The notes beneath the pieces were generated by a model, which was given only the letters and a program-made list of their open reading frames with translations, did not search any database and was not told the origin of the DNA. DNA of 24,883 nt from a virus. The stretch lies in IMG/VR virus record IMGVR_UViG_3300042691_035211, positions 1 through 24,883 of that record. One strand, 5' to 3'. Below are positions 2,779-15,554 of this stretch, piece after piece; the first letter of the stretch is position 1, and every line of letters begins with the position of its first letter. The position numbers and the translations under genes were made by a program.

Positions 2779-2837
2779 TTCTATCAATAGAGATACCAAA
2801 AAGTCTTTTACCGACGAAATTTTTTTTAAAAAACGAA

Positions 2838-2855
2838 CCCCCCAACCCCCGCCCC
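2838..2855 (-). other. G-rich tract on the minus strand, possible G-quadruplex
   Basis: The + strand holds C runs of 6, 5 and 4 (2838-2843, 2846-2850, 2852-2855) separated by AA and G. The complementary strand therefore has three G runs with 1-2 base loops, enough for a G-quadruplex if the six-base run is shared between two columns. It is conspicuous in this AT-rich DNA and sits just upstream of the promoter at 2859. Confidence 0.4.
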
Positions 2856-2858
2856 ATT

Positions 2859-2888
2859 TTTTGTAATTCCAATAATTATTTGTATATT
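2859..2888 (+). promoter_or_regulatory. Host-type promoter for the modification operon
   Basis: TTTTGTA (2859-2865) and TATATT (2883-2888) start exactly 24 bases apart, as in five other promoters in the window. The stretch between ends in TTATTTG, matching the TTTTTCG seen in other members. The ATG of the epimerase gene is nine bases after the -7 box, so the mRNA would have almost no leader. Confidence 0.65.
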
Positions 2889-2897
2889 GGTTATATT

Positions 2898-3737
2898 ATG
2901 AAAAAAGTACTTATTACGGGTGGATGTGGTTTTATCGGTCACGCACTCTCATTAGAATTAATTAAAAGAGGTTATTCAGTTAGTATCATTGATAATCTCT
3001 ATATTGGTAAAGAATCTCAACTTGCGGCAGGATGTGAATTCTTAGGTGGGGATATTAGAGGAATGAATAATATTGAAGAAAAGAAATACGATTATATATT
3101 TCATCTCGCTGCCATTAGTAGAATACAACCCTCATTTCAAAAACCGGCTTTAACCTTTTCAGTTAATGTGGATGGTACTAAACAGGTCGTTGAGTATGCT
3201 TTGAAAACGGGCTCTAAGTTAATATATGCAGGTTCATCATCCCGTCACCACAATCCATTTCTATCACCATACGCTCTTACAAAACATATGGGAGAAGAAT
3301 GGATAAAGATGTATAAGGGTGTTTACGGATTAAATGCTCAAATTGCCCGCTTCTATAATGTATATGGTCCAGGTGAATTAGTAGATTCCGATATGGCTGC
3401 AGTGATTGGTATGTGGAGGGCTGCAATACAAAGGGGTGAAACAATTAAGATACATGGTGATGGAGAACAAAGAAGGGATTTTACTCATATTGATGATATT
3501 GTTGATGGATTAATCAGAATTGCAGAATCGGATGAAGAACATGAAGATGCATGGGAATTGGGTACTGGTTGTAACTATTCAATAAATGAGGTAGCTAAAA
3601 TGTTTGGTGTCATATGTGAGTATGTAGGGGATGTAAAGGGTAATTATAGAGAAACGATACGAATTAACAATGATGCCGTTGAAAGATTAGGTTGGAAACC
3701 AAAAGATAGGTTAAGTGCATACATTAGTAGTTTATGA
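2898..3737 (+). CDS. NAD-dependent epimerase/dehydratase (nucleotide-sugar type)
   Basis: This is an extended short-chain dehydrogenase of the NAD-dependent epimerase/dehydratase family, whose members change the sugar of a nucleotide-sugar such as UDP-glucose. The N-terminus has the Rossmann motif GGCGFIG (residues 8-14) after a beta strand, then IDNL ending the second strand, FHLAA (about 68-72), and the catalytic YxxxK as YALTK (125-129). RRDFTHIDDIVDG and a C-terminal RLGWKP are also typical. At 279 residues it is shorter than GalE (about 330). The start is the ATG at 2898; the upstream TTG at 2880 lies in the promoter. It probably supplies the activated sugar for the glycosyltransferases downstream. 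The exact substrate cannot be told from sequence. Confidence 0.9.
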   Translation: MKKVLITGGCGFIGHALSLELIKRGYSVSIIDNLYIGKESQLAAGCEFLGGDIRGMNNIEEKKYDYIFHLAAISRIQPSFQKPALTFSVNVDGTKQVVEYALKTGSKLIYAGSSSRHHNPFLSPYALTKHMGEEWIKMYKGVYGLNAQIARFYNVYGPGELVDSDMAAVIGMWRAAIQRGETIKIHGDGEQRRDFTHIDDIVDGLIRIAESDEEHEDAWELGTGCNYSINEVAKMFGVICEYVGDVKGNYRETIRINNDAVERLGWKPKDRLSAYISSL

Positions 3738-4054
3738 ACGTCACAGTCATAGAAAAATTAGAAAAGGGGTGGATTAAAATGGATTGGAAAGAAACCATTC
3801 ACCGTGTCCGATTGGGTAAGGAAGACATGTCAGAATTAGTGGATAAAGTAGACCGATTTAAAGGAAATCGTTCAGCAAAAGAAATTATCCTATTTCGCTA
3901 TAAGGGATTACCCGTCTACGTTACAATACAAAGAAAAGAATACGGAGAACTATTAGATTGGTTGATGGGACGATTTATAGAAATGGAATGGTATGAAGGT
4001 TGCGTAAATGTTACAAAAATAAAAAGTAAAATCAAAAGTTTGGTAAATTCATAA
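3734..4054 (+). CDS. Hypothetical protein (106 aa)
   Basis: This is a 106-residue basic protein with the pattern of a small alpha/beta domain (KEIILFRYKGLPVYVTIQRK followed by a Trp-rich helix). No family is recognised. Its ATG overlaps the stop of the epimerase gene (ATGA), so translation is probably coupled. A host-type promoter begins inside the last codons of this gene (4039), so its end doubles as the control region of the methyltransferase gene. A role linked to the epimerase is possible but not shown. Confidence 0.65.
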   Translation: MNVTVIEKLEKGWIKMDWKETIHRVRLGKEDMSELVDKVDRFKGNRSAKEIILFRYKGLPVYVTIQRKEYGELLDWLMGRFIEMEWYEGCVNVTKIKSKIKSLVNS

Positions 4055-4068
4055 ATTTTTCGTATATT
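4039..4068 (+). promoter_or_regulatory. Host-type promoter for the methyltransferase/glycosyltransferase genes
   Basis: TTTGGTA (4039-4045), TTTTTCG (4056-4062) and TATATT (4063-4068) match the shared element, with a spacing of 24 between the starts of the outer boxes. The ATG at 4076 is seven bases after the -7 box, consistent with a leaderless transcript. Confidence 0.75.
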
Positions 4069-4075
4069 CAATGTT

Positions 4076-4831
4076 ATGATTACTGATAAAAAATATATTA
4101 AAGAATTTATATCAAATAACATAGAGTTTGATGAAGTGGGTGATCAAGTACTAAGAGATGTACCATATCGTTGGTCGCATGGTGCAACCGATGACCATTT
4201 GGGTGATGGATTAATTATCTATTCACTAATCCAATATATGAGAGCAAAAGTATGTGTATGTTTGGGAAGTGGTGGCGGATTCGTTCCTCGTATAATGACC
4301 CAAGCTCGAATTGACCTACATTCTCAGGGCATATTTGAGGGTAATCCGGATTATAATTGGGGTGATATAGGTACAACATATGTAGTAGATGCAATGAATG
4401 GTATTGGTGGAGTTGTAAATTGGTTCAACGAAGAAAGTTTTTTTAGAAGAACTTTTCTTCCACGTATCATAAACGATACAACTTATAACGCATTCCACAA
4501 CTTTTTTGTTTTACAGGACATTAAGATAGATTACCTTCATATAGATGCGGGCCATTCTTATGAAAATGTAAAAGAGGATTTTGAGTTGTATTCACAATTA
4601 CTTTCACCAAATGGTATCATATCAATACACGATACAGACCCTAACTACCATGACCGATTTATAGTTACGCAAGAGGTAAAGGATAGAGGTGTTCATGATG
4701 ATTGGTCGGGCCCTATACGTTTGGCAAAAGAAATAGATGAGGAAAAATTTGAAGTGTTTAATTTGTTTAACTTTGGTATCATAAAAAACAAACCCGCTTC
4801 AACGGGTCTAACCCTAATTCGTAAAAAATGA
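4076..4831 (+). CDS. Class I SAM-dependent methyltransferase
   Basis: This 251-residue protein has a SAM-binding Rossmann fold of the Methyltransf_24 type. A glycine-rich loop, VCLGSGGGF (residues 61-69), binds SAM. The segment IDYLHIDAGHSYENVKED (about 150-167), followed by LLSPNGIISIHDTDP, is characteristic of this family, which often methylates sugars or small metabolites and is common in polysaccharide clusters. It is followed with an ATGA overlap by a glycosyltransferase. A role in O-methylating a sugar or glycosylated product of this operon is inferred. It could also act on another small molecule. Confidence 0.8.
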   Translation: MITDKKYIKEFISNNIEFDEVGDQVLRDVPYRWSHGATDDHLGDGLIIYSLIQYMRAKVCVCLGSGGGFVPRIMTQARIDLHSQGIFEGNPDYNWGDIGTTYVVDAMNGIGGVVNWFNEESFFRRTFLPRIINDTTYNAFHNFFVLQDIKIDYLHIDAGHSYENVKEDFELYSQLLSPNGIISIHDTDPNYHDRFIVTQEVKDRGVHDDWSGPIRLAKEIDEEKFEVFNLFNFGIIKNKPASTGLTLIRKK

Positions 4832-5673
4832 TAAGATTAGTTACGGTTACTGGTAGTAGAATCCACACACTACGACATATGTTGAATCACTATAAAGATT
4901 TAGTAGATGAGATATATGTAGTTGTATATGAGTGGTCGGATATAAAAACATATGATTTAGTGGCTGCAATTGTTTCTGAATTTCCTACTGCAACGATAGT
5001 AGATAGAATTGTTGCAGAAAAATACAATTGGGAAAAGGTTACCGAATTATATAACAAAACGAAATCCTTATATCCTAACGATTGGTGGGTAGTAGCAGAT
5101 GATGATGAATTTCACATATACTCCAAGCCTTTAGAAAAGATTATTTCCGATTGTGAATGGAATGGTTGGAATATAGTAAGAGGTGGATTTATAGATAGAA
5201 TTGGATTAGATGGTGGGTTTCCAGAAATAAACGATAAGGAATCAATTTTTAACCAATTTCCAATTGCTGGATTTTTTCGTTATCCACTATCAGGAGCAAA
5301 TCCAAATAAAGTATGTATAATGAAAGGTAATGTAAAACTATTACCAGGTCAACATTATGCAGAAATTAATGGACATTCTAATTGGAGATGGCAGGGATGG
5401 TCTCACCCACAAATTGCACCGATTGATAAATACAATGTTCAGGTACATCATTTCAAATGGGATAGTACTTGTGGTGAACGTATTAGAGAAGTTGCTAATG
5501 TTAATAAAATATATGCATATTCAGAAGAATATAGAATTATGTATAGACAACTTGCCAAACTAAGATTTAAATTTGATTTAACAAATGAAGAATTTAAATT
5601 TGAGAATGTTGGGGATTATTATAATGGACATTCGCAGTGGAAAGAAATATTAAATGAAATAATATCAATATAG
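4828..5673 (+). CDS. Glycosyltransferase (GT2/GT92-like)
   Basis: This 281-residue protein starts with the beta strand and turn of a GT-A fold (MIRLVTVTGSR) and has an acidic metal-binding motif, VVADDDEF (residues 88-95), equivalent to the DxD motif that holds the nucleotide-sugar. Downstream Trp-rich segments (NWRWQGWSH) and VHHFKWD with a conserved-looking arginine-rich helix resemble the acceptor side of GT2/GT92-type enzymes. Donor and acceptor are unknown. Its start overlaps the methyltransferase stop (ATGA). It has no membrane segment, so it should be cytoplasmic and act on phage or host material before export or assembly. Confidence 0.75.
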   Translation: MIRLVTVTGSRIHTLRHMLNHYKDLVDEIYVVVYEWSDIKTYDLVAAIVSEFPTATIVDRIVAEKYNWEKVTELYNKTKSLYPNDWWVVADDDEFHIYSKPLEKIISDCEWNGWNIVRGGFIDRIGLDGGFPEINDKESIFNQFPIAGFFRYPLSGANPNKVCIMKGNVKLLPGQHYAEINGHSNWRWQGWSHPQIAPIDKYNVQVHHFKWDSTCGERIREVANVNKIYAYSEEYRIMYRQLAKLRFKFDLTNEEFKFENVGDYYNGHSQWKEILNEIISI

Positions 5674-5674
5674 T

Positions 5675-5863
5675 ATGACAGAAGAACAAATGAAATTAGA
5701 AGAAAGAAAAGTAAAAGCACTGGAGAAGATTGCATATTCATTGGATGCACTTACAATATGGTTTGAAGAAATAGACAAACAGGATTGGAGTGATAGAATA
5801 GAATACTATTTAGCTGAGTGGCATAACACAATCAAACCAAAAGACCCAACAATAGATGAATAA
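5675..5863 (+). CDS. Small acidic hypothetical protein (62 aa)
   Basis: This is a 62-residue helical protein starting MTEEQMKLEERKVKALEKIA, with a Trp-containing second half (WFEEIDKQDWSDRIEYYLAE). Small proteins of this general look occur in T4-like marine phages, but I cannot name a function. The start is one base after the glycosyltransferase stop, and the gene overlaps the following GT7 gene by eight bases, so it is embedded in the operon. The sequence suggests a helical adaptor, but nothing shows which partner. Confidence 0.6.
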   Translation: MTEEQMKLEERKVKALEKIAYSLDALTIWFEEIDKQDWSDRIEYYLAEWHNTIKPKDPTIDE

Positions 5864-7154
5864 TAAATTAGGAGTAATAGTACCATATAGAAATAGGGAA
5901 CAGCATCTTAATATTTTTAAAAAACATATAAGGGAATATCTTAACAAAAAGAATATTGATTTTGAATTAGTAATTGTAGAACAGGTTGATAATTTACCAT
6001 TTAATAGGGGTAGGTTACTTAATATAGGTTTTTTAGAAGCAGAAAAATTAGGATGTAACTATGTTGTATTTCATGATGTAGATATGCTACCAATGGATGT
6101 TGACTATTCATACTCTTCCGATGTACTACAACTTGCGAACAACTTCATTCCAGATGGGGATTATATAAAAGAAATATACGAAGGTTATTTCGGTGGAGTT
6201 ACAATGTTTCCTAATGAATTATTTAGAAAAGTAAATGGTTACCCAAATGATTTTTTTGGATGGGGATTTGAGGATGACGAATTGTTAAGAAGATGTGTTT
6301 ACTCAGGCATAGAAACTGAATCTCAAAAGATTATCAATAGGATAAACAATGGATATGTATTAAAATTCAATGGGACAGGTTCATATATAAAAGTAAAAAA
6401 TATTATAGATTATAAGAAAAACATAAAAATATCAACTACGTTTAGAGTTGGTACTGATATGGGTTCTAAAAAACCATATGATGAATTGACCTTATTTTCT
6501 GTACCAGGATACGATATGACGCTTACTGCTATTGATATATTTGGTACATATAAGTTTGAATTATTTGATTACAAAAGAAAAGTATATTCAATTACTACAA
6601 AAAAACTACCAATACATTCAACTAATATTACAATAGAAATAGATGTAGTAGACTCCATAGTAAACGTAATTCAAAATAGAGAATATGTAGGCTCTTTTAA
6701 TTATAATAAAAAATTATTTGATTACTCAAAAGAAGAATGGATTTATATTGGAATTGCAAACCCATATAGAGGAAATAATTTAAAAGAATTTTACGGATAC
6801 ATTGGAGAATTTAAAGTATGGAATGATTCTAAAAAAATAATAGATTTAGATATTTCTAATTATAAAAATGGAAATATCCAAAATAAATGTACCAAAGAAA
6901 ACTATGAAGTATTTTCTTGCAATTTAATAGACCCAAATGAAAATAAATACGAATATATACAAATACCAAAAAAAAGAAAAGGTATATTTAAATTATTAGA
7001 GCATAAAAATAATGGATTCATAGATGGAAAATGGGAAACCATATCAACCAGATATAATCAAATAAAATTTAATAATAAAGGTAATAAGACAGGATTATCC
7101 GATTTAAAATATACAATATTAGAAAACAAAAATAATTTTATAAAAGTAATATAA
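5856..7154 (+). CDS. GT7 (galactosyltransferase-type) enzyme interrupted by a LamG-like domain
   Basis: The first 150 residues carry the hallmarks of the beta-1,4-galactosyltransferase family (GT7): IVPYRNREQHL (8-18), FNRGRLLNIGF (49-59), the metal motif FHDVDMLP (72-79), YFGGVTMF (111-118) and GWGFEDDELLRR (135-146). Residues about 166-345 look like a concanavalin/LamG beta-sandwich (YVLKFNGTGSYIKV, EWIYIGIANPY, FYGYIGEFKVWN). The last 60 residues (KRKGIFKLLEHKNNG, then RYNQIK and GLSDLKYTIL) resemble the normal GT7 C-terminus. So the catalytic domain appears to be split by a lectin-like insert. It would transfer a sugar, possibly galactose, from a nucleotide donor. No signal peptide. It overlaps the preceding gene by 8 bases. 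Confidence 0.85.
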   Translation: MNNKLGVIVPYRNREQHLNIFKKHIREYLNKKNIDFELVIVEQVDNLPFNRGRLLNIGFLEAEKLGCNYVVFHDVDMLPMDVDYSYSSDVLQLANNFIPDGDYIKEIYEGYFGGVTMFPNELFRKVNGYPNDFFGWGFEDDELLRRCVYSGIETESQKIINRINNGYVLKFNGTGSYIKVKNIIDYKKNIKISTTFRVGTDMGSKKPYDELTLFSVPGYDMTLTAIDIFGTYKFELFDYKRKVYSITTKKLPIHSTNITIEIDVVDSIVNVIQNREYVGSFNYNKKLFDYSKEEWIYIGIANPYRGNNLKEFYGYIGEFKVWNDSKKIIDLDISNYKNGNIQNKCTKENYEVFSCNLIDPNENKYEYIQIPKKRKGIFKLLEHKNNGFIDGKWETISTRYNQIKFNNKGNKTGLSDLKYTILENKNNFIKVI

Positions 7155-8464
7155 TGGAAAAAACAGATTCTTTTTGTGCTATACCTTTTGTGAGTACTAT
7201 GATAAATACGGATGGTAAGTTTAAGTATTGTTGTATTGCAGAAGGTGATGAAGATACGAATTTACAAACAAACGGAAAAAAATTAAATGTAAAAGAAAAC
7301 TCATTGTTAGATGCGTTTAATTCGGATACTGTCAGAAAAGTAAGAAAAAAAATGATTGCCGGAGAACAAGTTTCTGCGTGTATGAAATGTGATTTACAAA
7401 ACAAAATAGGTAGAGAAAGTTATAGAGATATGATGACAGGAGAATGGATAAAAAGAATAGGCTCCGAACAAATGAACGCATTGATTGAAGATGCAAAAAA
7501 TAATGATGGTATAATAAATTCAATGCCAGTTTATCTTGACCTAAGATTGGGTAATCTATGTAATTTTAAATGTAGAATGTGTAATCCATTCAACTCCAAT
7601 TCAATAGCGAAAGAACATTTTCAGCTTTGGGGAGAATCTGCAGAATATAGAAGAGTATATACATCTGAATTTGGAAACAGTCCCATACATTTAAAAAATC
7701 AAGAAACTTGGTTTGAAAGTGATGTGTTATGGAACCAAATTGAAGATATGATACCAACTCTTAAAAAAGTTTATATGACAGGTGGAGAACCAACTCTTAT
7801 TGAAAATAATTTTTATTTTATGGAAAAATGTATTGAGAAAGGTAGAAAAGATTTATTATTATTTTTTAATACAAATTGCTCAAATGTAAATAAAAGATTT
7901 GCAGATGTTTTAACAAAATTTGATAAAGTTGATATTAATGCAAGTATAGACGGATATGGTACTATGAATGATTATATAAGACACCCATCACATTGGGAAA
8001 AAATAAGTAAAAATTTTGAAACACTTGCATCAATAAAAAACGTTAATTTAGGAATTTCACCTGTGGTACAAATTTACAATATATTCAATATTGATCAAAT
8101 TATTGATTACGTTTATGAAGTAAATAAAAAATACAATAGAAATATTTTTATTGATTTTTTAATAGATACACATCCAAAAAACTTAGATGTGAAAATATTA
8201 CCAACACAAATAAAAGATGCTGCAAGACTAAAATTAGAAAAATACATAGAAAAAAATAAACACAAAATAGAAAATAATCATTTAACAAAAAATAGTACAT
8301 ATGCTATTATAAATTTGTTAAAAGAAGATAGAATACCAAACTCTGATTTTTATATGGAAAGTTTTTTATCCTATACAAAAATTTTAGATAAAAATAGAAA
8401 CCAATTTTTTGAAGAAGTTTGTACCGAATTAAATGGTCACATAAAAAAACATTACGGTGAATAA
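7154..8464 (+). CDS. Radical SAM enzyme with N-terminal twitch domain
   Basis: This 436-residue protein has the radical SAM cluster motif CNFKCRMC (Cys136, 140, 143) and GGEP (210-213) for SAM binding. The N-terminus has FCAIPF, a CC pair (26-27) and CMKC (76-79), the cysteine pattern of N-terminal-twitch radical SAM proteins, suggesting a second iron-sulfur cluster. Such enzymes start radical chemistry on peptides, sugars or nucleotides. The gene starts on the stop of the GT7 gene (TAATG) and overlaps the next radical SAM gene by eight bases. The two are related, so they may be duplicated or act in sequence. The substrate is unknown. Confidence 0.88.
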   Translation: MEKTDSFCAIPFVSTMINTDGKFKYCCIAEGDEDTNLQTNGKKLNVKENSLLDAFNSDTVRKVRKKMIAGEQVSACMKCDLQNKIGRESYRDMMTGEWIKRIGSEQMNALIEDAKNNDGIINSMPVYLDLRLGNLCNFKCRMCNPFNSNSIAKEHFQLWGESAEYRRVYTSEFGNSPIHLKNQETWFESDVLWNQIEDMIPTLKKVYMTGGEPTLIENNFYFMEKCIEKGRKDLLLFFNTNCSNVNKRFADVLTKFDKVDINASIDGYGTMNDYIRHPSHWEKISKNFETLASIKNVNLGISPVVQIYNIFNIDQIIDYVYEVNKKYNRNIFIDFLIDTHPKNLDVKILPTQIKDAARLKLEKYIEKNKHKIENNHLTKNSTYAIINLLKEDRIPNSDFYMESFLSYTKILDKNRNQFFEEVCTELNGHIKKHYGE

Positions 8465-9719
8465 AGATAGAAAAAATAGTGAAACGTTTTGTATTTTACC
8501 TTGGATACATATAGCAACATATACGGATGGTACTGCATTATTGTGTTGTGTATCAAACCCAAACACTGGTGAAAATTTAAATGATAAAACAATTGATCAG
8601 GTTAAAAACAGTGAATACTTTAAGGAAGCAAGAAAAGCTTTATTAAACGGTGAAAAATTTAAAGGATGTAATGTATGTTGGAAAGAAGAAGCAGTTGGTG
8701 TTAATAGTCATAGGATGAATGAAAATAATTTATGGGATGCAATACTTGGAAAAAATCTAATAGATGAAATTGTAAAAAACACACATGAAGATGGTTCAAT
8801 TGATAATGATTTATATACATTAGATTTTAGATTGGGAAATACTTGTAATTTAGCATGTGTTATGTGTAGACCAACGGACAGTTCAAAATGGTTACCTGAA
8901 TCAAAATTACTAGCCAAAGATTTAGAAACCGATGCAAAATGGGATTGGAAACATAAATCTGAAATTGACATATCTAAATTTAATTGGTATAAACGAAACG
9001 AATTCTTAGAAGACTTTTATAATCACTGCGGAAATATAAAATTGATGATATTCGCCGGCGGTGAACCACTACTTATAAAACAACATAAAGATATAATTAA
9101 AGAGTTAGTAAAAAGAGATTTGGCAAAAGATATTAGAGTAAATTATCATACAAACGCTACAATTTATGATGAAGAATTAATGGAATTATGGAAACATTTT
9201 AAAAGAGTGGAATTATTTTTATCAATTGATGGTCCAAGACAAATCACAGAATATGTAAGATATCCATCAAAATTTGATACAATAGAAAAAAATTTAAGAT
9301 TATATGATGATAACGCATCGGACAATATGTTTTTTAAAATACTATATACCGTTCAGGCATTAAATATATTTTATCTGCCAGAATTTACTGATTGGTTATT
9401 AGATCAGGGTTATAAAAAAATAATAAGAAAAAACTATGAAACACTTTTCCACACAGGAGTTTTATGGGGGCCACGGTATTTATCAACAAAAGTATTATCT
9501 GATAAAGCAAAAGAAGAAATTACAAAAAAAATAAAAGATTACGTTAGAAAAAACCAAGGGTTTATTAATGTTAATAATTTTATAGAAATGGTTAATATCA
9601 TGAACTCAGCAGATGAATCTCATTTACAAAAACAATTTTTTGAATATCTAATTAAATTAGATTTGTATAGAAATTTAAATCACAAAGAAACATTTAAACA
9701 ATTATTAGAATTATTTTAA
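8457..9719 (+). CDS. Second radical SAM enzyme with N-terminal twitch domain
   Basis: This 420-residue protein shares its plan with the preceding one: FCILPWIHI (11-19), CC (30-31), CNVC (71-74), then the radical SAM cluster CNLACVMC (130-137) and GGEP (201-204). The start is the GTG at 8457; no ATG exists before the essential FCILPWIH motif, so this non-ATG start is well supported. It overlaps the preceding stop by eight bases, which implies coupled translation. It is probably a paralogue that modifies the same or a related substrate. Not an obvious member of a named pathway. Confidence 0.88.
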   Translation: MNKDRKNSETFCILPWIHIATYTDGTALLCCVSNPNTGENLNDKTIDQVKNSEYFKEARKALLNGEKFKGCNVCWKEEAVGVNSHRMNENNLWDAILGKNLIDEIVKNTHEDGSIDNDLYTLDFRLGNTCNLACVMCRPTDSSKWLPESKLLAKDLETDAKWDWKHKSEIDISKFNWYKRNEFLEDFYNHCGNIKLMIFAGGEPLLIKQHKDIIKELVKRDLAKDIRVNYHTNATIYDEELMELWKHFKRVELFLSIDGPRQITEYVRYPSKFDTIEKNLRLYDDNASDNMFFKILYTVQALNIFYLPEFTDWLLDQGYKKIIRKNYETLFHTGVLWGPRYLSTKVLSDKAKEEITKKIKDYVRKNQGFINVNNFIEMVNIMNSADESHLQKQFFEYLIKLDLYRNLNHKETFKQLLELF

Positions 9720-9720
9720 T

Positions 9721-10698
9721 ATGTACAATAAATTTTTAAAAATAACAATGTTAAAAAATGATGGTAGCGAAATTATTTTAACATATATGTTAGAGGATAA
9801 TAATCCGGTAGTTGATAAATGGATTGAAATGACAAAAAAATCCATAAAAAATAATATGAAAATAAAAGCATCTTTAAATAATGTTGAAATTAATAATATT
9901 TCAATACTATTAAAAAAAATAAATGATGTTTTATATTTTATAAACAATCATTATGATAAAAAACTACCAGTATTTACAAATTTTTATGAATTAGATAATA
10001 TAATTTTGAATTATTTACATGAAGAATTTGAAATTTATGGAGATAGAATTGAAGAACTTCAATCAAAAAATAATTGGTCTTACGAATTGCATGAAAACTT
10101 TTTATCACTAAATGAGTATATACATATGATTGAAACAGCGATGCATGGTTCGGAAGATAATTTTCCAAATTTTAGTTGTTTATATGATTTTACGCCAGCA
10201 GGCCTTCATGAACCTATAAAAGAGGAATATAAACATTTTTTAGAAAATAAATTTGAATGGGGAGGTCTTTATTGTGGTTACAATACATTGGGTAAAGATT
10301 ATCTATCAATTGCGCCAGAAAATGATTGGGAAGTTATAGAACGTGATGAAGTAAGGCCTCAAATTAGATTTGCAGCAGAGACATGGATGAACTTTGGTCC
10401 TGATTTGAAAACAACTATAAATAAAGAATTTTATAAATGGTATACAACTTTACCAAATAAAATTCAAAACAAAATACCAATTGATGATTTGAATAAACTT
10501 TCATTGGGTAGGTATAGTTTAGGTAAAATTATTATTGATGAAAATTTTTTATCAATAGAACCTGATGCAAAAAAATGGTTACTACCAACCGGATCAGTTT
10601 ATTCAATAATGGGTAAAGAAGATTGTAAAACAAAATGGAACAGAGAAGTTTTTGCAAAAATTGTTGATATAAAAAGAATAGAAATAATAGAAAAATGA
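9721..10698 (+). CDS. Unknown protein between two radical SAM genes (325 aa)
   Basis: This 325-residue protein has no recognised domain. The first 110 residues have beta-rich then helical sequence; residues about 135-240 are the most distinctive, with GGLYCGYNTLGKDYLSIAPE, then an acidic stretch and RPQIRFAAETWMNF. It has few cysteines, so it is not another iron-sulfur enzyme. Its start is one base after the second radical SAM gene and its stop overlaps the third (ATGA). Strict packing suggests a partner or substrate-binding protein for the radical SAM enzymes, or the protein they modify. This is inferred from position only. Confidence 0.75.
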   Translation: MYNKFLKITMLKNDGSEIILTYMLEDNNPVVDKWIEMTKKSIKNNMKIKASLNNVEINNISILLKKINDVLYFINNHYDKKLPVFTNFYELDNIILNYLHEEFEIYGDRIEELQSKNNWSYELHENFLSLNEYIHMIETAMHGSEDNFPNFSCLYDFTPAGLHEPIKEEYKHFLENKFEWGGLYCGYNTLGKDYLSIAPENDWEVIERDEVRPQIRFAAETWMNFGPDLKTTINKEFYKWYTTLPNKIQNKIPIDDLNKLSLGRYSLGKIIIDENFLSIEPDAKKWLLPTGSVYSIMGKEDCKTKWNREVFAKIVDIKRIEIIEK

Positions 10699-11648
10699 AG
10701 TTTAATATAAAGGAAATCAAAACTATTTATCCAGAAATTTTTCAATTAACATGGGTTTTAAATAATATTTGTTCAAATCAATGTTCGTATTGTAATCCAT
10801 TTTTATATGCAGGAAAAAATCATAATTATAAATGGGAAAATGCCAAAATATTTATAGATGAATTATTTAAAAGAAAAAATAAAATAAATTGTTCTATATC
10901 CGGTGGAGAACCAACAATGTCACCATTTTTATTAGAAATATGTAAATTGTTTTTTAATAACGGTCATACAATAGGAATAACAACAAATGGTACAAAAAGT
11001 GTACAATATTATAAAGAAATAAGTAAATATTTAAATCATATTTGTTTTTCATATCATCCAGAATATGGTGATAACAATAAATTATTAGAAAAAATACACG
11101 CATGTATTGAGAACACAAAAGTAACAGTTAGAATAATGATGCATCCTACTTATTGGGATGAATCTATCTCTTTTTTTGTAGAATGTTTAAAAAATAAAAA
11201 TATTGGAACAGAAGCCGTTAGGATTTTAGATAGAGGACAATCTGATAAAAATACATACACATATTCTGATGAACAATTAAAATGGTTTACTTTTTCTCAA
11301 ACAAGAAATAATGAAGCAATAATCTTCATTGATAACAAAGAATTTACAAAAATGGGTTCCGATTTTTTTTTAGAAGATGGTACTATTGATAAAAATGGCC
11401 ATGCTGTTGATTATATAAATGAAGGTTTAACTGATTTTTACGGATGGAAATGTAATATTGGATTGGAACACTTGTACATATCTGCAGAAGGATATATAAA
11501 AAGAGGAAATTGTGAAGTGGGAGGTTTTATTGGTAATATAGATGAACCACTTAATATTCAATGGCCGGAAAATTCAATCATCTGCAATAAACACATTTGT
11601 TTTTGTACACCAGATGTATTGGTTAGTAAAAAAAATTTGATAATTTAA
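10695..11648 (+). CDS. Radical SAM enzyme with C-terminal SPASM/twitch-like cysteines
   Basis: This 317-residue enzyme has the radical SAM cluster at residues 26-33 (CSNQCSYC) and GGEP at 70-73. Unlike the two upstream enzymes, the extra cysteines are at the C-terminus (Cys253, 273, 297, 302, 304), which resembles a SPASM or twitch auxiliary-cluster region found in peptide-modifying and some sugar-modifying enzymes. There is no membrane segment. It is the last gene of the operon; the next gene has its own promoter, whose -33 box lies in the last codons of this one. Confidence 0.87.
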   Translation: MKFNIKEIKTIYPEIFQLTWVLNNICSNQCSYCNPFLYAGKNHNYKWENAKIFIDELFKRKNKINCSISGGEPTMSPFLLEICKLFFNNGHTIGITTNGTKSVQYYKEISKYLNHICFSYHPEYGDNNKLLEKIHACIENTKVTVRIMMHPTYWDESISFFVECLKNKNIGTEAVRILDRGQSDKNTYTYSDEQLKWFTFSQTRNNEAIIFIDNKEFTKMGSDFFLEDGTIDKNGHAVDYINEGLTDFYGWKCNIGLEHLYISAEGYIKRGNCEVGGFIGNIDEPLNIQWPENSIICNKHICFCTPDVLVSKKNLII

Positions 11649-11667
11649 ATAAATTGTAATATATTTG
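11636..11667 (+). promoter_or_regulatory. Host-type promoter with perfect TAnnTTTG box
   Basis: TTTGATA (11636-11642) and TATATTTG (11660-11667) have the same 24-base start-to-start spacing as the other promoters, and the second box matches the Bacteroidota -7 consensus TAnnTTTG exactly. The ATG of the next gene (11672) is only four bases downstream, which favours leaderless translation. Confidence 0.7.
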
Positions 11668-12790: not shown

Positions 12791-13186
12791 ATGTTTTATT
12801 CAGAGATTGACAGAATTATGGATAGTATTACAGCTCATCCATTATGGGAACAGGCAACAAAAACAACAACATATGTTCCTAGTAAATTTGCAGTAGATGT
12901 AAAAGAAGAAGCAGCGGTAATTGCTTTATCAGTATTGGGACATGACCCAAAAGATGTTGAAATCAATTGTTTTGAAGACAAAATTGAAATCAAAGCAAAA
13001 AAATTCACAGAGGACAAAGAAAATCCTTTTAATCAATTAATTTCAGATATTGATGAAAGAGTACATGTTGGTAAAAATTTTGATGGAAAAAAAGCTAAAG
13101 CTGAAATTAAAAATGGTATTTTATTAATTACCATTGAAAGAAAGGAAGAGTCCAAACCTAAAAAATTAACTCCAAAAGTTGGTTAA
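12791..13186 (+). CDS. hsp20: Small heat-shock protein (Hsp20/alpha-crystallin)
   Basis: This 131-residue protein has an alpha-crystallin domain: residues about 30-120 form beta strands ending with NGILLITIERKEE (about 108-120), the family signature. A short N-terminal arm and a Lys/Pro-rich tail flank it. Small heat-shock proteins hold unfolding proteins in a soluble state without ATP. T4-like marine phages commonly carry one, and it may protect structural proteins or polymerase during infection. It ends nine bases before the -7-box region of the next promoter and just upstream of a terminator hairpin. Confidence 0.88.
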   Translation: MFYSEIDRIMDSITAHPLWEQATKTTTYVPSKFAVDVKEEAAVIALSVLGHDPKDVEINCFEDKIEIKAKKFTEDKENPFNQLISDIDERVHVGKNFDGKKAKAEIKNGILLITIERKEESKPKKLTPKVG

Positions 13187-14612: not shown

Positions 14613-15554
14613 ATGAATATAGGATATGCATGTATTAATATGACGATTGGTAAAAAAATTACCACAAATCGTTCAATGGTAAAAAAAACCTTTAATGCCA
14701 AAGGATTAGATTATGTTTCCGAACTTGCACTAAAAAATGCATCGGATATTATTAAGATACTTGAATGGAATAGATTAAATGGCATCTATTTCTTCCGATT
14801 ATCATCAACAATAGTTCCGTGGGGTGACCACATTGATTTAACCCAACTTAAAGATTACAAAGAGATTAAAAGTGAGTTGAAGAAAGCAGGTGATTTTGCT
14901 AAATTTCACAATATTCGTATAACTTGTCATCCTGGTCCATTCTGCGTACTTACTTCACCAAATGAAACGGTGGTTAGTAATACAATAGCCGACTTAGAAC
15001 TACATGGTAAAATATTTGATATGATGGGGTTATCTAAGACTCCTTACAATAAGATTAATATTCATTGTAATGGTGTTTACGGAGATAAAAAATCTGCAAT
15101 GGATAGATTCATCAAAAACTTTAAAAGACTCTCTAAATCGGTGCAAAATAGGTTGACAATAGAGAATGATGATAAGGCTTCTATGTATTCTGTTAAAGAC
15201 CTTATGTATATTCATAATAAAATAGGAACACCTATTGTATTTGATTATCACCATCATCAGTTTTGTACAGGTGACCTTTCAGAAGAACAGGCTCTTAAAC
15301 TTGCAGCATCAACCTGGCCGGAAGATATCACACCAGTGGTACATTATTCCGAATCAAAAGCATTGCATGAAAATAATCAAAAAGAAAAACCACAAGCACA
15401 CTCTGATTATATCAATGCCTTACCTAATACATACGGATTGGACGTGGATATTATGGTTGAGGCAAAAGCAAAAGAACTGGCAATACTCCCATTCATTAAT
15501 AAGCAAACTATTTGTGAATATAGTGGATTAAAAGCAGTTGAAGCATACGTTTAA
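14613..15554 (+). CDS. uvdE: UV-damage endonuclease (UvdE/UvsE family)
   Basis: This 313-residue TIM-barrel nuclease cuts DNA 5' of UV photoproducts and other distorting lesions. The sequence carries the metal ligands of the family in order: His106 (CHPGPF), His151 (IHCNG), Glu184 (TIENDD), Asp211 and His213-215 (FDYHHH), His244 (VVHYSE) and Glu283 (MVEAKAKE). Length is typical of bacterial UVDE proteins. It would repair phage DNA exposed to sunlight and, with the host-type promoter just upstream, be made early. No frameshift or missing ligand seen. Confidence 0.9.
   Translation: MNIGYACINMTIGKKITTNRSMVKKTFNAKGLDYVSELALKNASDIIKILEWNRLNGIYFFRLSSTIVPWGDHIDLTQLKDYKEIKSELKKAGDFAKFHNIRITCHPGPFCVLTSPNETVVSNTIADLELHGKIFDMMGLSKTPYNKINIHCNGVYGDKKSAMDRFIKNFKRLSKSVQNRLTIENDDKASMYSVKDLMYIHNKIGTPIVFDYHHHQFCTGDLSEEQALKLAASTWPEDITPVVHYSESKALHENNQKEKPQAHSDYINALPNTYGLDVDIMVEAKAKELAILPFINKQTICEYSGLKAVEAYV

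Follow-up and report, generated by a model that had tools for sequence, protein, structure and literature searches.

A phage accessory cassette of glycosyltransferases and radical SAM enzymes that may decorate a tail fibre or other virion protein

Aquatic phages often carry radical SAM (rSAM) genes, to which the excerpts of the literature considered here assign no role. The closest described setting is that of the pelagimyophages, T4-like phages in which glycosyltransferase (GT) genes and rSAM cassettes sit in a hypervariable host-recognition region near the tail fibre genes (PMC7029224), and a T4-like marine environmental viral genome is comparable in its many rSAM genes, 12 in all (PMC5332604); judging from the available parts of these two reports, the kind of locus is thus already known. 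Jumbo cyanophages group carbamoyltransferase, 2OG oxygenase and methyltransferase genes in sugar/amino-acid clusters (PMC7824862), and mycobacteriophages glycosylate their virions at the C-termini of structural proteins, as far as the available text goes (Freeman 2023, as cited in PMC12619734). The locus described here is an apparent accessory cassette of a T4-like phage, and we put at roughly one half the probability that it decorates the virion, with a tail fibre or other appendage protein as the most likely target that we infer.

The window analysed here is an entire IMG/VR contig of 24,883 bases. Ten open reading frames (ORFs) on its plus strand span positions 2898-11648 (Table 1) and are joined at intervals of -4, +21, -4, +1, -8, -1, -8, +1 and -4 nt, so that six of the nine junctions overlap. 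The preliminary description of this DNA had reported exactly such a run of ten tightly packed, overlapping genes, and every one of its ORFs was recovered; the families it had named, an epimerase, a methyltransferase, GTs and three rSAM enzymes, were likewise identified with Pfam and NCBIfam and have intact catalytic motifs. None of the ten proteins contains a membrane segment. Its placing of the island in a phage is supported as well, with gp25-like and gp6-like baseplate genes located downstream. The gp6 homologue shares 40-41% identity with its counterparts in Flavobacterium phage immuto and Microcystis phage Mel-JY01, and several neighbouring genes also match these phages. Since neither of their whole records has a match to NF033640, the family of two of the rSAMs, the cassette is regarded as accessory. 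Only 2 of 30 starts are preceded by a Shine-Dalgarno-like motif, which suits a Bacteroidota host, and such a host is probable.

The left edge of the island looks to be at about position 2881. A relative with 96% identity (contig L116) matches the window from 1 to 2881 and stops there, which marks the left part as phage-like DNA and is consistent with the edge of a variable island. GC content is 0.38 in this part and about 0.25-0.30 rightward. The possibility of a chimeric contig at ~2.9 kb, raised by the GC drop from 0.38 to 0.25, was considered; the match over 1-2881 argues against a mis-join and makes it less likely. At the right edge, a match to the Bacteroidota-type promoter consensus faintly suggests that transcription may start anew after rSAM3; with five plus-strand matches in the window, it may also be a chance occurrence. 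Scans for sigma-70 promoters and terminators gave no more matches than shuffled sequences. The island is followed by an Hsp20-like gene (12791-13186) and a UV-damage endonuclease-like gene (14613-15554), ahead of a peptide deformylase gene.

Table 1. Features of the cassette, its borders and a candidate substrate in cultured phages (window positions unless a locus is given)
Feature	Position	Strand	Basis
Left island boundary, non-coding poly-T/poly-C stretch	2779..2897	.	Contig of the 96%-identical relative ends at 2881
g01, SDR nucleotide-sugar epimerase/dehydratase, GalE-like	2898..3737	+	PF01370 3e-45; motifs TGGxGFIG, YALTK
g02, 106 aa, no family	3734..4054	+	Pfam, PHROGs and NCBIfam searches
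g03, SAM-dependent methyltransferase (MT; Methyltransf_24)	4076..4831	+	PF13578 3.3e-11
g04, GT2-like glycosyltransferase	4828..5673	+	PF13704 E=4e-4, below Pfam gathering score; DDDE, HHFKWD
g05, 62-aa acidic small protein	5675..5863	+	Conserved, between GT2 and GT7 genes; no Cys
g06, GT family 7, beta-1,4-galactosyl/GalNAc-transferase type	5856..7154	+	PF13733/PF02709 1e-22/1e-18; DVD, WGFEDD
g07, rSAM1, N-twitch radical SAM enzyme	7154..8464	+	NF033640 348.8 bits (cut-off 170); N-terminal SPASM/twitch
g08, rSAM2, paralogous N-twitch radical SAM enzyme, GTG start	8457..9719	+	NF033640 358.7 bits (cut-off 170)
g09, apparently phage-only partner protein	9721..10698	+	AF2 pLDDT 87, no PDB fold match
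g10, rSAM3, radical SAM core and C-terminal Cys-rich twitch-like domain	10695..11648	+	PF04055 1.4e-10; CxxxCxxC, GGEP
Bacteroidota-type promoter consensus match, TTG-N-TAnnTTTG	11637..11667	+	Just before next gene; 5 plus-strand matches in window
Structural-like protein with C-H-x-S tail beside rSAM genes	L075:15119-16009 (Atu_ph07); L078:12001-12921 (Phosso)		

The first six genes bring together sugar and methyl chemistry, and four of them (MT-GT2-g05-GT7) form what we call module A. The epimerase g01 could supply donor sugars; it scores under the cut-off of TIGR01179 (1.5e-26), and an epimerase of its family adjoins the MT gene in four other loci (L082, L091-L093). For the product of g02 no counterpart was found in the related loci examined. 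Scanning with g03 recovered 35 viral loci at 58-87% identity, and a PHROG label of 'DNA methyltransferase' attaches weakly to this protein. The DDDE and HHFKWD motifs of g04 are kept in two aligned homologues. The GT7 assignment of g06 is firm (80.2 bits for PF13733, gathering 27; 66.8 bits for PF02709, gathering 23; DVD and WGxEDD present), and the protein has a long C-terminal region, which is LamG/concanavalin-like in a paralogue (Laminin_G_3 in L027).

The remaining four genes, rSAM1-rSAM2-g09-rSAM3, form module B. All three rSAMs contain the PF04055 core, and the two types distinguished earlier held up, namely an N-terminal twitch in rSAM1 and rSAM2 and a Cys-rich twitch-like C-terminal domain in rSAM3. 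The former two belong to NF033640, scoring about twice its cut-off and having relatives that keep both the N-twitch and CxxxCxxC: the N-terminal twitch cysteines are near-invariant across 14 aligned rSAM1 and 15 aligned rSAM2 sequences, and in rSAM1 C8, C26, C27, C76, C79 and the core CxxxCxxC are so. rSAM3, with its twitch at the C-terminus, lies outside this family (18.8 bits, under the cut-off). In three other loci (L011, L012, L015) its twitch-like domain is N-terminal, and the C-terminus in the window aligns with the N-terminus in L015 at a score of 139, the maximum in 1000 shuffles being 56. A comparison of L015:9229-10260 with window positions 10695-11648 displays this natural domain permutation.

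The partner protein g09 appears to be confined to phages. Copies turned up at 38 viral loci, among them overlapping loci and near-duplicates, and no copy was confirmed in 84,980 prokaryotic genomes by a pattern-based scan that could miss distant relatives; tblastn against cultured phages returned no match, and PDB profile searches with g09, C2 and C4 gave nothing useful. Its AF2 model (pTM 0.78) had no PDB match below E = 0.1 in Foldseek and nine viral ones, all uncharacterised phage proteins, including one from the cultured Agrobacterium phage Atu_ph07. The invariant residues include H100, E101, H135, E138, Y187, T189, G191, K192 and Q214, and it may be guessed that the first four bind a metal. 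In 33 of the 34 loci parsed, g09 is at most 21 nt away from an rSAM gene or is fused to rSAM3, and at the remaining locus it lies at the contig end. g09 and rSAM3 are one fused protein in two phages (L052 and L054); the AF2 model of the natural fusion (pTM 0.51) is too poor to orient g09 relative to rSAM3. On contig G009 (L069:5047-15404), several rSAM genes follow one another in tandem, and g09 is present in a second, divergent copy.

Both modules recur in other phages. Scanning with rSAM2 gave 17 viral loci, and the order rSAM1-rSAM2-g09-rSAM3 is kept in L004-L007, where rSAM2 is 73-74% identical; L011, L012 and L015 have the same module with rSAM3 and g09 exchanged. In many sister phages an Asp/Asn hydroxylase (PF05118) commonly stands next to g09/rSAM3, and a 451-aa protein of unknown type commonly follows module B; the window has neither. 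In L004 (11887-15399) this conserved 451-aa protein and a B12-binding radical SAM protein form a single fused chain of 1170 aa. An appendage-like protein is encoded upstream of the cassette in L011, L015 and L050 and probably in L036 and L043, that of L036 being Gly-rich. Module A is more widespread than module B, often comes with an epimerase and a further N-twitch rSAM, and has the recurrent order fibre - GT-like - MT - (epimerase) - GT2 - g05 - GT7 - GT7 - N-twitch rSAM, with giant fibre-like ORFs immediately upstream in its relatives. In 18 of 27 MT-bearing records an S74-type fibre-chaperone domain lies upstream, no more than 5 kb away and on the same strand, 1.25 being expected by random placement, a comparison that overstates independence because the 27 are related phages and include near-duplicates.

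Both modules occur together on a 176-kb phage contig (G001), in which MT-GT2-g05-GT7, five extra genes and rSAM1-rSAM2-g09-rSAM3 succeed one another in the window's order, behind a gene for a 1574-aa fibre-like protein and paralogous tip-like proteins. In a further phage (G002), the cassette sits between an S74 fibre and the tail sheath/tube. Because other phages repeat this order of genes, the island is not a chance assembly. The preliminary description had claimed a linked combination, to be given up if homologues always occurred separately, and the neighbourhoods bear it out. Its further idea of one pathway fared less clearly: A and B stand together in the window and in G001, but they are two separable modules, so a single pathway is plausible and unproved.

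If the cassette does decorate the virion, the chemical steps may be read from the enzyme families as follows. The epimerase would provide UDP-Gal/GalNAc-type donors; rSAM1 and rSAM2, together with g09 and rSAM3, would use radical chemistry to alter either the acceptor, through side chains of a structural protein, or its sugar; GT2 and GT7 would attach sugars, the LamG-like part of GT7 helping to hold the glycan or the fibre; and the methyltransferase would cap the product. In this scheme g09 would assist rSAM3, either by presenting the substrate or by taking part in catalysis. More specifically, and only tentatively, these genes could constitute a new post-translational modification system in which the N-twitch pair, the third rSAM and g09 radically modify a fibre or appendage protein before it is glycosylated and methylated. 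Four targets had been proposed initially (virion proteins, host surface sugars, a small peptide and modified DNA bases), among which the linkage of relatives to tail fibre genes favours virion proteins, and no gene for a peptide precursor or hallmark of DNA modification was recognised in the cassette. It counts against the virion that no fibre gene was recognised beside the cassette in the window, where the recognised baseplate genes begin ~10 kb downstream.

A link to fibre genes would also be in keeping with a change to the host receptor, and in the main rival reading the cassette builds or modifies a glycan of the host surface (LPS core, O-antigen or capsule) so that other phages cannot attach, with the rSAMs epimerising, deoxygenating or methylating sugars. 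GT8-rich pelagimyophage clusters were interpreted in this sense, in the text available (PMC7029224), as were the sugar clusters of jumbo cyanophages (PMC7824862), and sister cassettes contain GT8/glycogenin-like, UDP-glucose dehydrogenase, carbamoyltransferase and sulfotransferase-like genes. However, the ten genes include no flippase, polyprenol-phosphate transferase or membrane-anchored GT, although soluble LPS-core GTs would still fit; relatives are placed beside tail fibres, and the Asp/Asn-type hydroxylases of sister cassettes suggest a protein acceptor. We consider a host glycan possible, with odds clearly short of those for the virion. It is less probable still that two independent modules, one for glycosylation and one for radical chemistry, merely adjoin each other and serve different substrates. 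g09 is present in only 2 of the 27 module-A records, where its copies are distant and unlinked, and module B is accompanied elsewhere by other GTs (GT8, C2); yet an N-twitch(-like) rSAM is present in all 27 MT-bearing records searched, usually directly after the GT7 genes, and the two modules share their order, with overlapping genes, in G001 and the window.

The product is unlikely to be a small, diffusible compound such as a RiPP-like peptide or an aminoglycoside-like secondary metabolite. The only solved structure related to rSAM2 by profile is the peptide maturase SkfB, and sister sets with carbamoyltransferase and hydroxylases recall a proposed cyanophage metabolite cluster (PMC7824862), but the cassette in the window contains no precursor-like ORF as expected of rSAM/SPASM RiPP maturation, and neither an exporter nor a protease gene is among the ten. 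The small protein g05 was considered as a precursor and rejected, because it is conserved along its whole body and lacks Cys; it is also missing from most g09 cassettes. GTs and radical SAM enzymes act in some phage base-modification pathways, so hypermodification of phage DNA against restriction was weighed too. We hold it to be the least probable reading, as Pfam, PHROGs and NCBIfam recognised no hallmark gene among the ten cassette genes, the GTs are of glycan type (GT7, GT8) and the relatives are placed among structural genes and not in replication regions.

Cultured phages offer a view of possible substrates for the virion-decorating reading. Atu_ph07 has four rSAM matches within 7 kb, two above the Pfam cut-off, and amid them a 300-aa protein, which was assigned to the g09 match in BFVD by equal length only. 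Together with its homologue in Phosso it aligned with the g09 profile over 253 columns (hhalign, E 1e-4, probability 55%), suggesting a remote relative of g09. A cupin-like protein and a 296-aa protein adjoin these Atu_ph07 genes, with a giant structural gene nearby. The 296-aa, structural-like protein is 38% identical overall between Atu_ph07 and Phosso, with 18 of 23 matches in the last 23 residues, and ends in a C-H-x-S repeat tail, CH[ST]SCHASCH[NS]SRSRR (CHSSCHASCHNS), which makes it a candidate rSAM substrate on the phage particle. Among sister loci scanned for Cys-rich/HxS C-termini, only Atu_ph07 had a clear case. Two proteins near the G001 cassette have Cys-rich tails (L061:177-926 and L062:17713-19164) and are possible further substrates. 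Vibrio phage K566 has five strong NF033640-type matches, two above the cut-off, among GT-like genes and a tip-like protein (labels read from sequence); VPHK566_0304 was compared as a possible g09 homologue and gained no support.

In the literature searched, which left most subscription papers outside its scope, no description of a fixed rSAM-g09 module was found. The question now centres on a defined module of four genes, one of them coding for an apparently phage-only partner, in cassettes whose relatives are tied to tail fibre genes, and Atu_ph07, Phosso and K566 are cultured phages in which the target could be sought. If the virion reading is true, phage adhesins would bear residues that are both radically altered and glycosylated, which could affect adsorption, stability and recognition.

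Compared with known systems, the cassette resembles Hxs and other rSAM/SPASM peptide maturation in its paired rSAMs and partner protein, as well as in the C-H-x-S repeats of the candidate substrate in Atu_ph07 and Phosso, but the rSAMs of both the window and Atu_ph07 are far below the HxsB/HxsC cut-offs and the window has no HxS repeat (HxsA-type) protein. The jumbo cyanophage clusters are read as capsule or metabolite chemistry, and radical SAM/SPASM terms are absent from that report (PMC7824862). Mycobacteriophage virion glycosylation, in the part of the text available, has no described radical SAM component (PMC12619734), and the available part of the report on the 12-gene genome assigns its rSAMs to Fe-S metabolism and gives neither their gene order nor a partner protein (PMC5332604). 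The location near fibres described for pelagimyophages is seen in relatives of the cassette, whereas the window has no recognised adjoining fibre gene; in the available text, the pelagimyophage genes are read as acting on the host O-chain, while the virion is favoured here, and rSAM cassettes are named there without a fixed module (PMC7029224), whereas here the module rSAM1-rSAM2-g09-rSAM3 is defined together with its natural fusion and domain permutation.
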